NCBI GenBank assembly: GCA_029547145.1
Contig: JAKPPV010000006.1
Span: 1-64,000 of the forward strand
DNA from: Methanobacteriota archaeon
Lineage (GTDB): Archaea > Halobacteriota > Methanomicrobia > Methanomicrobiales > Methanospirillaceae
Length of the DNA: 64,000 nucleotides
Reading direction: 5' to 3'
In this document: in pieces, positions 7,706 to 16,760 of the stretch
How positions within the stretch are numbered: the first letter of the stretch is position 1
How the letters are laid out: every line of letters starts with the position of its first letter
Made by a program: the position numbers and the translations under genes
The notes under the pieces: generated by a model
Database searches by the model: none
What the model saw: only the letters and a program-made list of their open reading frames with translations
What the model was told of the DNA's origin: nothing

Positions 7706-7903
7706 CCCCAGAGCGTGGCCGTTCCGACCAGATAATCCCTCTCCTCTCGGATGGCACGCGTCTTCCGCCGGAGACCATGCACCGCCGGTCCTGAGGAGCA
7801 GGGTTCCGACCGATGATGGATGGGAACCCCTCAGGAAGGTATAGAGGGATGGAGCACCCACCTCAACCGGGGAGTGGATCGCTCCTCCGGAGAGAGAGCG
7901 GAT

Positions 7904-8179
7904 ATGAAGGTACGGGTCAGGTTCTTTGCACAGTTCCGGGAGCGGTATGGGGGGACTCACGAGATCGATCTCCCGGAGGGGGCCACGCTCCTGGAGGCTG
8001 TTCGCCACGTGATCGGAAGAGAGCGCGACGAGGACTCGGTGATGGACCGGGACGATCGGCTCCGGGAGTTCGTGATCCTGATGAAGAACGGTGTCAGGAT
8101 CGAGCAGGAGGAAGTGCCGACCATCAATCTCGAGGACGGGGACGAGGTCGCCGTCTTTCCGCCCGTGGCAGGTGGTTGA
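7904..8179 (+). CDS. moaD: MoaD-type molybdopterin synthase small subunit
   Basis: This 91-residue protein has the MoaD/ubiquitin fold: MKVRVRFFAQFRE at the N terminus, E-I-D-L-P-E-G-A-T-L, and a C-terminal acidic strand DGDEVAVFPPVAGG ending in Gly-Gly. The Gly-Gly tail is thiocarboxylated and donates sulfur to precursor Z in molybdopterin (tungstopterin) synthesis. A longer version starting at 7820 adds unrelated sequence; ATG 7904 matches the family start. Three bases after its stop comes moaE, its enzymatic partner. Molybdopterin is needed here for formate dehydrogenase and formylmethanofuran dehydrogenase. Confidence 0.9.
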   Translation: MKVRVRFFAQFRERYGGTHEIDLPEGATLLEAVRHVIGRERDEDSVMDRDDRLREFVILMKNGVRIEQEEVPTINLEDGDEVAVFPPVAGG

Positions 8180-8182
8180 GAG

Positions 8183-8617
8183 ATGACCGGACTGGAGTGC
8201 CGGGTTGCGATCCAGGAGGAAGAGGTCCCGATCGACGAGCTGCTCGCAGAGGCGCGGAGGGGTGGCGTCGGCGGCATCGTACTCTTCGATGGAATCGTCC
8301 GCGACGATGACTGCGAGGCGATGGAGGTCGAGGCCTATACCGACGTGGCCCTTGCCGAACTGCAGCGGATTGCGACCGACGTGGGTGTGCGGCACGGGGT
8401 GGTGTATGTCGCGGTGATCCACCGAACCGGCCGTATCCCGGTGGGCAACGACCTTCTCGTGATCGTGGTGGCCGCCGCCCACCGGGAACAGGCCTTCGCC
8501 GCCTGCCGGGAGATCCTCGAGGCGATCAAGGCCGGCGTGCCGATCTGGAAGAAGGAGTGTGCAACAGGGAACGATCGGTGGGTCCGCGGTGAACACTGGC
8601 CCGTCACCGGTGACTGA
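8183..8617 (+). CDS. moaE: Molybdopterin synthase catalytic subunit MoaE
   Basis: MoaE forms a heterotetramer with MoaD and adds two sulfurs to cyclic pyranopterin monophosphate. The 144-residue protein shows the family blocks: GGIVLFDGIVRDD, LEVEAYTD-like (residues 50-56), HRTGRIPVGND and the catalytic-lysine region PIWKKECATG near residue 120. It starts three bases after moaD and is probably translationally coupled. A Cas6-like gene follows after only nine bases, an unusual neighbour. Confidence 0.95.
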   Translation: MTGLECRVAIQEEEVPIDELLAEARRGGVGGIVLFDGIVRDDDCEAMEVEAYTDVALAELQRIATDVGVRHGVVYVAVIHRTGRIPVGNDLLVIVVAAAHREQAFAACREILEAIKAGVPIWKKECATGNDRWVRGEHWPVTGD

Positions 8618-8626
8618 TAAAAGGAC

Positions 8627-9340
8627 ATGCGACTGCTGCTGCATCTGATGGCCGAAGAACGTCCGGAGTCCGAAAAGAACCGGCGTGAAGGCATTGCCCG
8701 CCACCTCGCGGACCTCCTGGCAAGGGAGTGGCGCTCCGATCTGCCGGGCGGGGCCAACCCGATCTACTGCTTCTCCAACCTCTTCCCGCCGGGCGAGGTG
8801 CAGCCCGGAGAGCGGAGGCGTCTTCTCGTCGCCTCGCCGAACCCCGGGATCATCCGTGCACTCGCCCGGCAGGTGACCAGGTACAGGGAACCCCTACGGG
8901 TCCACGGGATGGCCTTCCGCCCCGAACGATCTGAGATCTTCTCCATCCGGCTGGAACGGGCAGGGATCCGCCTCACCACGGCCACACCGATCCTGCTCCG
9001 GGTCCCGTCACCGGAGGGGAGCAGGGGTTCAGTCCCCTGGGCGCCCCCGATGCCGGAGGAGGAGTTTCTCCAGGTGCTGAACCGGCACCTTGTCCGGCGC
9101 TTCAATGCATACCATGCAACGCGCATCGACGAGGGGACCGTTCTCATCGCGGAAGGAAGACTGCTGCGAGCGACGCGGAGCGGGAGCATCCCGACGTCCT
9201 ACTGGGAACTGCGTTCCGGACGCCTCACCTCTTCGGCTCAGCGGGTGCTTGCGTTCTCCATCGACGCCGGTTTCGGTGAACGTGTCCGGCAGGGTTTTGG
9301 CTTCGTCAATGTCTCCCGGAGACCCGGATCCGGTCCGTAA
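8627..9340 (+). CDS. Orphan Cas6-like CRISPR RNA endoribonuclease
   Basis: This 237-residue protein has the two-ferredoxin-fold architecture of Cas6. The N terminus is a hydrophobic strand (MRLLLHLM) and a helix. The middle has YCFSNLFPPGEV and TATPILLRVP, as in Cas6 family members. The C terminus carries the diagnostic glycine-rich loop (GFGERVRQGFGFVNV). Cas6 cuts repeat RNA to make crRNAs. No CRISPR array or other cas gene is in the window, and the gene lies nine bases after moaE with AAGGA upstream of its ATG. It may serve arrays elsewhere in the genome or have another RNA target. The catalytic histidine cannot be assigned by eye. Confidence 0.75.
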   Translation: MRLLLHLMAEERPESEKNRREGIARHLADLLAREWRSDLPGGANPIYCFSNLFPPGEVQPGERRRLLVASPNPGIIRALARQVTRYREPLRVHGMAFRPERSEIFSIRLERAGIRLTTATPILLRVPSPEGSRGSVPWAPPMPEEEFLQVLNRHLVRRFNAYHATRIDEGTVLIAEGRLLRATRSGSIPTSYWELRSGRLTSSAQRVLAFSIDAGFGERVRQGFGFVNVSRRPGSGP

Positions 9341-12109: not shown

Positions 12110-13381
12110 CTACAGGGAAAGCGAACCCCCGAGGACGATCTGGACGAAGACCCCCGCCAGAAAGATCAGAAGACCGAGCCCGGCGAGCGGCAGGGTATAC
12201 CGGAGGACGACCCGGAACGGTTCGTCTCCCGTGGTCCGCTGTACCAGCCAGAAGAAGGGATCGGTCACGTAACTGACGACGCAGGCGCCCCCACCGACCA
12301 TCAGAACGAACGCGATGGGATCGAGCGCTGCTGCCACCCCGCTCCCACCCAGGATCTGGGAGACGAGCACCGCCGTCACGACCCTGGACCCCTGGATCGA
12401 CTGGACCAGTGCCGCGATCAGGAACGGGATCAGCACGATCGGCACCCACCCGGTGAGCGCGGTGAGCGCCCCTTCGGTGATTCCGGACAGAACGATCACG
12501 GTCCCGAGGGCACCGGCGCCGGTCAGGTCGAAGATGATGAGGCCCGCGTGTCGCGTCGCATTCGTCACCGTCGCATCGCGGAGGCCCGGAGGCACAAAGC
12601 ATAGTGCGGCGCCGGCTCCCGCGAGCATGACCAGGTTGATCAGGGCGGCGTGAGAGACCCCTCCCGCGAGCCCGGTGACGACGGCGGCAAGGATCACAAG
12701 AAACGGAACCCAGGCAACAAGATGCAGTCGGGGACCGTCGGCTTCCTTCTCCGCAGACTCCCGATCTGCTGACCGTCGTACCCGCAGACGAACGACCAGC
12801 ACGAGCAGCAGGACGAGGAGGAAGGAGAGAGGGATCGCGATCGAATCGTACCTGACGGGATCGATCCCGGCCCCCGCCCCTTCAACCAGCGGGATGATGA
12901 CCGGCGTCGGGTATACCAGGGCGTAGCTGAGGACCGAGGAGATCGCGGCGAGATAGAGAAGGGTCTTCTTTGTTGTATCGTCCTCTCCGAGGGCCGCGAG
13001 GATCGGTTCGAGCGTCACATAGGCGGTGATGCAGCAGGTAAACGGGACGGCGAGCGCATACCCGAGCAGCCCTGCGGCGGCATAGGGGTCGGCGGCGTAT
13101 CTCCTGACGTCCGTGGCGATCGAGGCGATCCCCCCCGTGACGTCCAGGGACTTCGCAATGATGGCACCGCAGAGGATGATCAGCCCGAAGGCGGAGAATG
13201 TATGTCCAAGACCGTCCACGATCCCCCCCACCGTCCGATCGATCCCGAGCCCGGAGAGCAGACCGAAGACGAGCGCCCCGCCTACGAGGGTGAAGAACGG
13301 AAAGAACCGGCGGCGATGGCTGGCGATGGAGACGAGGCCGAGCACCAGGAAGAGGGAGGCAAAGAGCCAGATGGGGTCCAT
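12110..13381 (-). CDS. GntP-family permease
   Basis: This is a 423-residue integral membrane protein with about 12 hydrophobic segments. The pattern of the N-terminal half (GLGHTFSAFGLIILCGAIIAKSL, then VTGGIASIA) and of the C-terminal half (AALVQSIQGSRVVTAVL, GGGACVVSYVTDPFFW) resembles the gluconate:H+ symporter (GntP/CitM-like) superfamily. The substrate is probably a small carboxylate but cannot be named. It is on the same strand as fdhD, 45 bases downstream of it, and may be in the same transcript. Confidence 0.75.
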   Translation of the reverse strand: MDPIWLFASLFLVLGLVSIASHRRRFFPFFTLVGGALVFGLLSGLGIDRTVGGIVDGLGHTFSAFGLIILCGAIIAKSLDVTGGIASIATDVRRYAADPYAAAGLLGYALAVPFTCCITAYVTLEPILAALGEDDTTKKTLLYLAAISSVLSYALVYPTPVIIPLVEGAGAGIDPVRYDSIAIPLSFLLVLLLVLVVRLRVRRSADRESAEKEADGPRLHLVAWVPFLVILAAVVTGLAGGVSHAALINLVMLAGAGAALCFVPPGLRDATVTNATRHAGLIIFDLTGAGALGTVIVLSGITEGALTALTGWVPIVLIPFLIAALVQSIQGSRVVTAVLVSQILGGSGVAAALDPIAFVLMVGGGACVVSYVTDPFFWLVQRTTGDEPFRVVLRYTLPLAGLGLLIFLAGVFVQIVLGGSLSL

Positions 13382-13426: not shown

Positions 13427-14131
13427 TCATTTCGAAAGACGTTCCGGATGGGCATGGCAGGAGAGGACCCCCCCGCCACCGCTGCTGCAGAGTGCAAGAC
13501 CGGTCCGTTCGGCAAGCTCGACGGCCAGCCCGGTGACCGGACCGGTCGACACGAGGACAGGAACGCTTGCCAGCACAGCGCTGCGCACCAGCTCGGCCGT
13601 CGCCCGGTGGGAGACCGCTGCGACCCGTCCACCACCGGGGAGGTCCCCGTTTAATACCCCCTCCCCAATCACCCGGGCCAGTGCCGTTGCGAGCCCGAGG
13701 TCGTCGCTCTCGAACCACCGCCCGCCCACCGTCTCGAGGGCAGCGGAGAAGAGGCCCGCGGGCGGATCGGAGATCCGGTCGAGCGCCTCCTCGACCTCCT
13801 GGAAGGGTATGGGCGGGGTGGAAGGAAGCGGAGCGAGCCGGCGTTCGATGACCCGGGTCACGGCCCCTCCACAGCCCGTGAGGGTCCCACGACGGGGGAC
13901 CACCACCCGGAACGGGTCGGTGGTGAGTACCCGGACCACGCCTTCCTCCTCGAGCACGGATTCGATCTCCGCGCGGGACCGGATCACCTGCCCGCCGAGG
14001 AGAAGACCCACGACGAGCGCGGGCAGGCGGTCGGGCACGGTCATGATGTCGAGATGGTGCCGTCCGTTCAGGTAGACAGAGACGAGCGTCTCGTCGAGGA
14101 GACCGGTTCCGGGCTCAGGCACCATGCGCAC
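13427..14131 (-). CDS. fdhD: Formate dehydrogenase accessory sulfurtransferase FdhD
   Basis: FdhD takes sulfur from a cysteine desulfurase and transfers it to the Mo/W-bis-MGD cofactor of formate dehydrogenase. The 234-residue protein has the family blocks L-D-E-T-L-V-S-V, P-D-R-L-P-A-L-V-V-G-L, the cysteine loop (TGCGGAV, near residue 88), the E-S-D-D-L-G-L region and a C-terminal STGPVTGLAVELAERTG. Bacterial FdhD carries a CxxC pair; here only one cysteine is visible in the loop. Its start overlaps by 17 bases the cysteine desulfurase fusion gene upstream, which gives a direct sulfur-supply context. Confidence 0.92.
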   Translation of the reverse strand: MRMVPEPGTGLLDETLVSVYLNGRHHLDIMTVPDRLPALVVGLLLGGQVIRSRAEIESVLEEEGVVRVLTTDPFRVVVPRRGTLTGCGGAVTRVIERRLAPLPSTPPIPFQEVEEALDRISDPPAGLFSAALETVGGRWFESDDLGLATALARVIGEGVLNGDLPGGGRVAAVSHRATAELVRSAVLASVPVLVSTGPVTGLAVELAERTGLALCSSGGGGVLSCHAHPERLSK

Positions 14132-16760
14132 ACTCCTCTACGCCGGCAAGCAGCGTCTCGATGTCCGCCGCGTTCGAGTAACAGTGGAGGCTCGCCCGGA
14201 CCGTTCCACCGGGAAGTCCGAGCCGGCGCATCAGCGGTTCGCAGCAGTGGAGGCCCGATCGGACCATCACGTTCAGCTCGTCGGAGAGGTACTGGGCGAC
14301 CTCGTGGGGATGGAACCCGTCGACCGTGAATGATACGACCCCTATCCTTGTTTCCGGGTCGAAGGGTGCGAAGACGCGGACCCCGTCGATCCCCCGCAGG
14401 TCATCGATGAGGCGCGTGGTGAGCCGCTCCTCGCGGGTCCGGACGGCGTCCATGCCGATGGAGGAGAGATAGTCCACCGCGGCTCCCAGGCCGATCGCAC
14501 CCGCGATGTTCGGCGTGCCCGCCTCGAACCGCGCGGGGCCCGGGGCCAGGACCCACCCGTCCTCGCTGACCAACTCGACCGCCCCTCCGCCGAGGAGCAG
14601 CGGCTCGGGCACGGGCTCCCGCATCCAGAGCACCCCTGTTCCGGTCGGCCCGAGCATCTTATGCCCGGAGAAGGCGAGGTAATCGATGCCAAGGCGTTGC
14701 ACGTCCACCGGGAGGTGCGGGACCGACTGCGCCCCGTCGACGAGGAGGAGGGCACCCCGTTCACGGCAGATCCGGCCGATCTCCTCGATCGGCGTGATGG
14801 TCCCGACCGCGTTCGAGGCATGCGTCACCGCGACCAGCCGCGTCCTTTTGTCGATCGCCGCCTCGAGAGCCTCGATATCGAGGAGAAGGTCGTCGCCGAT
14901 GTCGATCACCTCCACCTCCACACCCCGGGAGCGGAGGCGGAGCCAGGGAAGGAGGTTGGAGTGGTGTTCGAGCACCGTCGTCACGACACGGTCGCTGGGT
15001 TGCCAGGAGAGACCTTGGGCCACGATCCCGATCGCCTCCGTCGAGTTCCGGGTGAAGACCGTCGTGCCTCCCCTGCCGTTGATGAACAGTTCCACCTTCT
15101 CACGGGCGTGCCAGTATCTCTGGCTGGCGAGTTGCGCCAGGCGGTGGACGCCCCGCCCGACGTTCGAGCGGTAGTGCCGGTCGAACTCCACCATCGCGTC
15201 GATCACCGGGCCCGGGGAGAGGCTCGTCGCCGCAGAATCCAGGTAGACGGTATCGCCGAGGATGGGAAAGTCTCTCCGGGGTGCCGCACCCGATTCAGAC
15301 ACCTCGTCTTGCACCGGGCCCGCCGTCACCTTCCCACTCACGGGAGGGGACGAACTGCGGATCGGGGCGAGCTCGCCATCCGGTGTCATCTCAAGGCCAT
15401 GCTGACGGCAGAGCTCGGCCATCTTCTTCGGGAGGACCTTCCACCGCCAGAGCCCCCATGATACGAACTCCCCGGGAAGACCTCTGGCGCGGGCGTACCC
15501 GGCAAGGAATGCATCCCAGCGGCCTGCAAGCTCGGGGTGGATCCGGCGCACCTGTTCCTGCTCCGCCTCGAGCATCGCGGGGCAGAGGTAGCATCCGAGC
15601 CGCTCGAACCCCTGCGCGTAGAGCGGGTTCACCGGGAGTCCCCTCCACCAGATGTAGAGCCAGACCTCGAGAGCCCGCCAGTGGCGGATCGGTGAGACGT
15701 TCAGCTGAAGGGGGTTGTTCGGGTTCTGGCTCGTCTCGTCCAGGCCGGCCCGGTTCCAGGACTCGTACCACCGGTTCCCCTGGATCGTGACGCAGGGGCC
15801 GATGGTGGCGAGGTGACGCTTCAGTGGATGGAGCTTGAGGAGCTTGCAGCACCAGCGGTTGTCCTTCCCGGGAGGGCCAGCCCGTTCGGCGGCCAAAAAG
15901 AAGTCTCCGCCCTTCTCGATCACGAGCACACCCATCGATCGGACGAAGTCGAGCGTCTCCGGGAATTCGAGGCCCGTGTCGATGAAGAAAGCCTCGCTCA
16001 CGCCGGCCTTCCGGGCAAGGGCGAGCACTGCCGTACTGTCCTTCCCGCCCGAGAAGGAGACGTTCGTGCGCGGGCGGTCACCGAGATGGGCCCGTATCGT
16101 CCGTACCGCCTGCCGTTCCAGATTCTTGAGGTGGAGCCGGTTCCGGTCGACCACGATCTCCCACCCCGGGTCCGGAAACCGGGTTGACTGCACCGCGACC
16201 AGTTCCCGCACGCGCAACCACCCGTCGGCAAGCTGTCCGGTGCCGTACCGCCCCCGGTAGTGGACGATCACGGGACCGTCGGGCTCGCTGGTGCTGATCC
16301 TGACCCTCTTTCCCCCGAGCCGGACCTTTGAACCGGTGAACTTCGGGTCCCGATCCAGGTCGATCACACCCTTCGTCGCTGCTCCGATCAGCCCGGGGAG
16401 GGCCCCGGGTTCCGGATCGAACCGGTGGGTCCGGGTGACCGGGTCGAAGGAGAGCCAGCCGAACCGCGTGCCGTTCGCGATCACCAGCTCGTTCCGGTCG
16501 AGTCCCCCCGTCTTGTTTAAAAGAAGCACCCGCGGGACGGGGACGTCTCCGAACCGCGCCCGGACGAGCCCCGCGATCAGGTCGTAGTCGGCCTTCAGGG
16601 CGGGCCTCACATCATAGGGCTCGAGGAGCGGAATGGAGACGCCTTCATGGCCGGACGCGCAGATCCGGCCGAGCAGGGGGACGTTGCAGTCCGGACACCA
16701 GTAGAGCGTCTTCTTCACGTGCGGATCGATCGCTCTGCCCCTTTCCCGTTCGCGCCGCAT
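14115..16760 (-). CDS. PAPS-reductase-like / cysteine desulfurase (SufS-type) fusion protein
   Basis: This 881-residue protein joins two enzymes. The N-terminal half (about 1-480) starts with a zinc-like knuckle (CPDC...C) and a PUA-like segment, then a PP-loop domain of the PAPS reductase family (SFSGGKDSTAVLAL near residue 240, RWCCKLLKL, and GCYLCPAMLEAE near 390), as in archaeal MJ0973-like proteins. The C-terminal half (about 495-881) is a class V aminotransferase of the SufS/Csd type: PLP lysine Lys701 in SGHKMLGPTG and catalytic-loop cysteine Cys839 in SGLHCCEP. It probably generates persulfide from cysteine. The downstream fdhD overlaps its end by 17 bases, so sulfur is probably passed to FdhD; the PP-loop half has no known substrate. 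Confidence 0.9.
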   Translation of the reverse strand: MRRERERGRAIDPHVKKTLYWCPDCNVPLLGRICASGHEGVSIPLLEPYDVRPALKADYDLIAGLVRARFGDVPVPRVLLLNKTGGLDRNELVIANGTRFGWLSFDPVTRTHRFDPEPGALPGLIGAATKGVIDLDRDPKFTGSKVRLGGKRVRISTSEPDGPVIVHYRGRYGTGQLADGWLRVRELVAVQSTRFPDPGWEIVVDRNRLHLKNLERQAVRTIRAHLGDRPRTNVSFSGGKDSTAVLALARKAGVSEAFFIDTGLEFPETLDFVRSMGVLVIEKGGDFFLAAERAGPPGKDNRWCCKLLKLHPLKRHLATIGPCVTIQGNRWYESWNRAGLDETSQNPNNPLQLNVSPIRHWRALEVWLYIWWRGLPVNPLYAQGFERLGCYLCPAMLEAEQEQVRRIHPELAGRWDAFLAGYARARGLPGEFVSWGLWRWKVLPKKMAELCRQHGLEMTPDGELAPIRSSSPPVSGKVTAGPVQDEVSESGAAPRRDFPILGDTVYLDSAATSLSPGPVIDAMVEFDRHYRSNVGRGVHRLAQLASQRYWHAREKVELFINGRGGTTVFTRNSTEAIGIVAQGLSWQPSDRVVTTVLEHHSNLLPWLRLRSRGVEVEVIDIGDDLLLDIEALEAAIDKRTRLVAVTHASNAVGTITPIEEIGRICRERGALLLVDGAQSVPHLPVDVQRLGIDYLAFSGHKMLGPTGTGVLWMREPVPEPLLLGGGAVELVSEDGWVLAPGPARFEAGTPNIAGAIGLGAAVDYLSSIGMDAVRTREERLTTRLIDDLRGIDGVRVFAPFDPETRIGVVSFTVDGFHPHEVAQYLSDELNVMVRSGLHCCEPLMRRLGLPGGTVRASLHCYSNAADIETLLAGVEECAHGA

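Follow-up and report, generated by a model that had tools for sequence, protein, structure and literature searches.

The DndA-DndC/BrxP systems combine a cysteine desulfurase and a PP-loop protein from the PAPS-reductase family. DndA supplies DndC with sulfur, just as IscS supplies ThiI, and DndC, TtuA and NcsA activate and sulfurate their own nucleic acid substrates. In E. coli, the desulfurase IscS hands sulfur to FdhD, in which the loop cysteine Cys121 is essential, for the sulfuration of Mo-bisPGD (PMC10609526). Some FdhD proteins have no loop cysteines and M. maripaludis apparently has no desulfurase, and the route of sulfuration in these cases was left open (PMC10609526). The solved desulfurase that is nearest to the one treated here (E 3e-104) is PDB 5b7s, in our reading ToCDS of Thermococcus onnurineus (PMC5426080), which we take to be TON_0289, the protein encoded at the end of the formate dehydrogenase/hydrogenase cluster TON_0261-0289 (PMC4463584). 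According to its authors, the physiological role of ToCDS is not understood (PMC5426080).

The window, a stretch of 64,000 nucleotides from a Methanospirillaceae archaeon (contig JAKPPV010000006.1), contains a gene that resembles all of these and differs from each of them. The likely sulfur route would be that of E. coli, but the desulfurase is of the SufS type and is fused to a PP-loop protein, and the FdhD has one loop cysteine. ToCDS stands alone, whereas the desulfurase of the window is fused. In contrast to DndA-DndC/BrxP, no DNA defense genes were seen in the annotated part of the flanks of the fusion gene, and the similarity to DndC is weak. A survey published in mSystems in 2024 reported a CysH-SufS fusion, "cluster 536", to be exclusive to Methanomicrobiales (PMC11237513), and its description and taxonomic range, as given in the accessible text, indicate that it is the same fusion. 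The accessible text labels the N-half CysH, mentions FdhD zero times, and contains neither the cysteine pattern nor the ferredoxin swap nor the loss events reported below. The fusion as such is already known; judged by the literature searched, the FdhD partnership and the way in which the halves come apart are new. We regard it as reasonably probable that the C-half donates persulfide mainly to the adjacent cysteine-type FdhD, and that the N-half is an ATP-using PP-loop sulfurtransferase with a separate role.

Architecture and distribution of the fusion gene

The open reading frame at 14115-16760 on the minus strand, which runs from ATG to TGA and encodes 881 amino acids, is a real gene. As the initial annotation had proposed, one chain carries a PP-loop half and a SufS-type desulfurase half, with Pfam domains PAPS_reduct (PF01507, residues 233-395, 15576-16064, E 3.5e-35) and Aminotran_5 (PF00266, residues 505-870, 14151-15248, E 2.3e-123), both on the minus strand. 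The first domain contains the PP-loop SGGKDS (237-242) and the cysteine pairs C304-C305 and C390-C393, predicted ligands of a [4Fe-4S] cluster. It is preceded by zinc-ribbon-like cysteines at the N-terminus (C22, C25 and C34; 16641-16697, minus strand), the fourth position of which is C36 in most relatives and S36, with H38 nearby, in the window protein. The second domain has the fold of class-V aminotransferases and the residues H600, D675, Q678, K701, C839 and R855; K701 and C839 align with the PLP lysine and the persulfide cysteine of solved SufS-type chains. The top-scoring NCBIfam models are SufS TIGR01979 for the C-half, with 402 bits below the cut-off of 475, and, for residues 15-506, PRK13795, an archaeal family that likewise scores below cut-off. 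A full-length AlphaFold model, based on a thin alignment, had a pLDDT of 68.6 and was left out of the analysis.

The downstream gene fdhD (13427-14131, minus strand) indeed overlaps the end of the fusion gene, by 17 nt. Its product matches PF02634 (E 3.4e-23) as a divergent paralogue (82 bits) and has a single loop cysteine in the motif TGCGG. It is followed by a gene for a GntP-family permease (12110-13381, minus strand).

The full-length fusion is present in 77 of the 120 sampled genomes of the order Methanomicrobiales with 55-64% identity, and in partial form in two more, although relatedness of the genomes, which are not independent, inflates this and every other count given here. The named relatives all belong to Methanomicrobiales, including Methanoregula and Methanoregulaceae. 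An alignment of 26 fusions shows no variation in the PP-loop or at C304, C305, C390, C393, K701 and C839. With full-length copies in 77 genomes, the fusion is due neither to chance nor to an assembly error, the latter a concern of the initial annotation.

The desulfurase half and FdhD

The other concern raised at the outset, an inactive desulfurase, finds no support in the window copy, in which the predicted catalytic residues are intact and signs of degeneration are absent; degeneration was found in five relatives, which are treated below. A gene for fdhD lies within about 1.5 kb of 46 of the 77 fusions, in all six families. The arrangements are diverse: seven fdhD genes are downstream and five upstream on the same strand, 30 are convergent and four divergent. 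The gene order fdhA-fdhB-fdhD-fusion, with the fusion gene convergent, is found in three genomes (G004, G034 and G046). Stand-alone desulfurases of the same clade are located about 30-85 nt before fdhD in many genomes (e.g., G002, G015, G022, G025, G031, G033, G036, G069, G074 and G096).

The FdhD proteins encoded next to this desulfurase share the loop motif [S/T/A]GCGG. The cysteine is present in 56 of 56 FdhDs adjoining the fusion or a same-clade desulfurase, and the copies of genus g22 agree. Among the genomes with inspected FdhD loops, a cysteine-type FdhD occurs in 66 of 67 with the desulfurase, and in the sole exception, G029, the desulfurase is encoded on its own and the only type of FdhD is Cys-less. 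Conversely, in all 16 genomes that have a single FdhD and no desulfurase of this clade, it is Cys-less. Thus, two kinds of FdhD are found in a single order, one that bears the cysteine and goes with a dedicated desulfurase and one that is Cys-less and occurs where this enzyme is missing, which makes the sulfuration question left open by PMC10609526 testable in close relatives. The family contains some irregular members: in the cysteine-type FdhDs of G054 and G042 (L233 and L235), the family match is interrupted by stop codons close to the C-terminus, and in genus g22 a single frame of about 510 amino acids encodes two FdhDs in tandem (L193, G042:C1:229409-230788).

Several genomes represent natural experiments. 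In G117, which belongs to the same genus as the source of the window, about 0.18 kb stand in place of the roughly 2.1 kb of the window that hold the desulfurase half and fdhD. The gap is flanked by the N-half and by the gene for the GntP permease, both of which were kept; the N-half is an intact open reading frame with its own stop codon, and a Cys-less FdhD is the only one found. The five relatives with a degenerate fused desulfurase (G002, G038, G061, G020 and G026) have an arginine in place of K701, and D or G in place of C839 in the three in which that region is readable, while the N-half motifs are intact. An intact separate desulfurase is encoded beside a cysteine-type FdhD in G002, G038 and G020; G061 and G026 are too fragmentary for a separate desulfurase to be read. 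The reading frames of the degenerate halves (L252-L256) are still open. In G029, the N-half and the desulfurase are encoded by neighboring but separate genes. The joint loss, the dead fused copies and the split genes indicate that desulfurase and FdhD behave as one unit, from which the N-half is separable.

The adjacency of fdhD, the cysteine pattern, the joint absence, the degenerate copies, and the ferredoxin tail that replaces the desulfurase in other archaea (see below) point to FdhD as the most likely recipient of sulfur from the desulfurase. The link between the two that was initially proposed is thus strongly supported, also by the switching of partners. The SufS-type half would form a persulfide on C839, and the main recipient of this persulfide would be the loop cysteine of the neighboring FdhD. 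The charged FdhD would then sulfurate the Mo/W-bis-pyranopterin cofactor, either that of formate dehydrogenase or that of a related Mo/W enzyme. An additional role of the PP-loop half in the sulfuration of FdhD, which had also been suggested, is unsupported, since this half keeps its integrity both in genomes that lack the desulfurase together with fdhD and in those with a dead fused desulfurase, and is also found bare or with a ferredoxin tail, without this desulfurase.

In a midpoint-rooted desulfurase tree, which includes the relatives L038 and L039 but not the window protein itself, the majority of the stand-alone enzymes fall outside the clade of the fused ones. Therefore, the desulfurase probably existed as a single gene before the fusion.

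The PP-loop half and its relatives

The motifs of the N-half are strongly conserved: SGGKDS and all of C304, C305, C390 and C393 are present in 111 of 111 N-half sequences. The N-half thus combines SGGKDS with cysteines that could hold a [4Fe-4S] cluster, as do the PP-loop sulfurtransferases TtuA, NcsA and DndC-like proteins, but its invariant quartet is arranged in the ligand pattern of APS reductases. In Foldseek, a structure model of the N-half (pLDDT 84.9) matched APS reductase 2goy (E 4e-9), TtuA (1e-7) and NcsA (3e-6). The TM-scores, taken over the entire query, are about 0.3, so that the match is limited to the PP-loop domain. Based on these features we infer that the N-half is an ATP-using [4Fe-4S] PP-loop sulfurtransferase, which looks as if its job is separable from that of the desulfurase. 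By analogy with DndC, TtuA and NcsA, it would most likely activate and sulfurate a nucleotide or RNA; it may accept persulfide from the fused desulfurase, yet would not depend on it. Literature searches revealed no functional name for it.

Outside the order, the N-half is longer by about 120-157 residues, which contain two ferredoxin motifs of the form CxxCxxCxxxC. These archaeal PRK13795-type proteins (NF010366) share with the fusion the zinc-ribbon-like start, the PUA-derived region, the PP-loop and the cysteine quartet, but have two [4Fe-4S] ferredoxin motifs where the fusion has the desulfurase. In other archaea of the phylum, genes for the ferredoxin type (L118 5176-7391 and L119) adjoin genes for a GltD/SudA-like flavoprotein and a DHODB-type Fe-S/NAD subunit. 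Residues 112-200 of the fusion protein (16161-16427, minus strand) form a divergent domain that appears to be related by profile to the PUA region of distant paralogues. The profile link runs only through the ferredoxin-type relatives, some of which group with PUA paralogues. A clear PUA or RNA-binding domain in the fused N-half was rejected, because Pfam PUA was found only in a distant paralogue and the direct profile comparison fails (0.2%). A distant bare paralogue of the N-half is also present in most genomes of the order, and both distant paralogues that were scanned have a clear PUA domain (three were examined in detail).

In a tree of 111 N-halves, 79 fused rows group with 10 bare ones with a support of 97, seven bare genes are the sister of this group, and the ferredoxin type is outside, although the tree has long branches and at least one "bare" row is cut off by the end of its contig and another by a stop codon (L136 and L150). 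The simplest reading of this topology would be a single fusion that was later lost or split several times. Most of the bare genes of the sister clade (L075, L079-L085) are located near grpE-dnaK-dnaJ and a purH-like gene. A more far-reaching scenario, which we put forward tentatively as a possibility, is that the N-half family would represent an archaeal enzyme, so far undescribed, that sulfurates RNA or nucleotides. In the ancestor of Methanomicrobiales, a ferredoxin-tailed lineage might have gained a desulfurase instead, yielding a one-chain, DndA-DndC-like machine, the desulfurase of which doubles as the dedicated donor of the cysteine-bearing FdhD class.

The retention of a single fusion event across most of the order would also be in agreement with a chain that is mainly a self-contained thiolation machine, in which the desulfurase supplies the PP-loop half and the link to FdhD is secondary. 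The structural matches to TtuA and NcsA and the results of PADLOC, namely BrxP of phosphorothioation BREX as the top match of the PP-loop half (1e-35) and SspA/DndA as matches of the desulfurase, point in the same direction; other dnd, ssp or brx genes are absent among the annotated neighbors of the fusion. However, such a machine is hard to reconcile with N-halves that stay intact when the desulfurase is missing or dead and that are bare or ferredoxin-tailed elsewhere, and the stand-alone desulfurases are mostly paired with fdhD rather than with N-half genes. Therefore, we regard it as unlikely.

A true PAPS/APS reductase that acts in sulfate assimilation, as the CysH label used in the accessible text of PMC11237513 implies, is very improbable. 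The PAPS-reductase assignment of the initial annotation holds for the fold (PF01507; 2goy as the top match, itself a [4Fe-4S] enzyme) and for the CC...CxxC ligand pattern, but not for the function: the PP-loop of ATP pyrophosphatases is intact, while in the aligned 2goy it is altered to SGAED, and the nucleophile motif of CysH, C-terminal ECG[LI]H, was found in none of the 111 sequences, also in the relaxed form CG[LIVM]H. In addition, the zinc-ribbon-like start and the putative PUA-derived domain are foreign to CysH. The N-half thus marks a widespread archaeal sulfur enzyme that has been published as CysH, a label unsupported by its motifs.

Other sulfur donors and possible clients

Cysteine desulfurases are not rare in this order. 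The source genome also contains an IscS-like gene next to IscU, and according to published counts 30 of 32 Methanomicrobiales have SufS homologues (PMC8351635), so that the initial remark that methanogens often lack these enzymes fails here. A gene for SufE was absent from the genome; SufE is not used by every SufS enzyme.

The FdhD-directed role of the desulfurase need not be exclusive. Seven fusions are beside thiM-thiE and 24 beside neither thiM-thiE nor fdhD, 16 of the latter in one genus, and two desulfurases that stand alone are followed by a ThiF/MoeB-like gene, which makes other clients possible and indicates that FdhD need not be the sole one. FdhA is present in genomes both with and without the desulfurase module, which rules out that formate dehydrogenase accounts for the distribution of the desulfurase and shows that the module is not essential for this enzyme. 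It would thus be accessory, or would additionally serve another Mo/W enzyme. A general supply of sulfur for Fe-S clusters, thiamine and pterin, with the proximity of fdhD as mere inherited gene order, fits the thiM-thiE and ThiF/MoeB-like neighbors but is highly doubtful, because inherited order alone would not predict four fdhD arrangements, the cysteine correlation and the joint absence, and because the genome has a separate IscS-IscU pair and no SufE.

At L040, L041, L043, L052, L053 and L056, thiM-thiE are directly 3' of the fusion gene on the same strand. In the window, genes for a MoaD/ThiS-like protein and MoaE are located at 7820-8617, about 5 kb from the fusion gene on the other strand, and moaE is adjoined by a gene similar to the C-terminal part of Cas6 (8627-9340; PF01881, E 2e-8).
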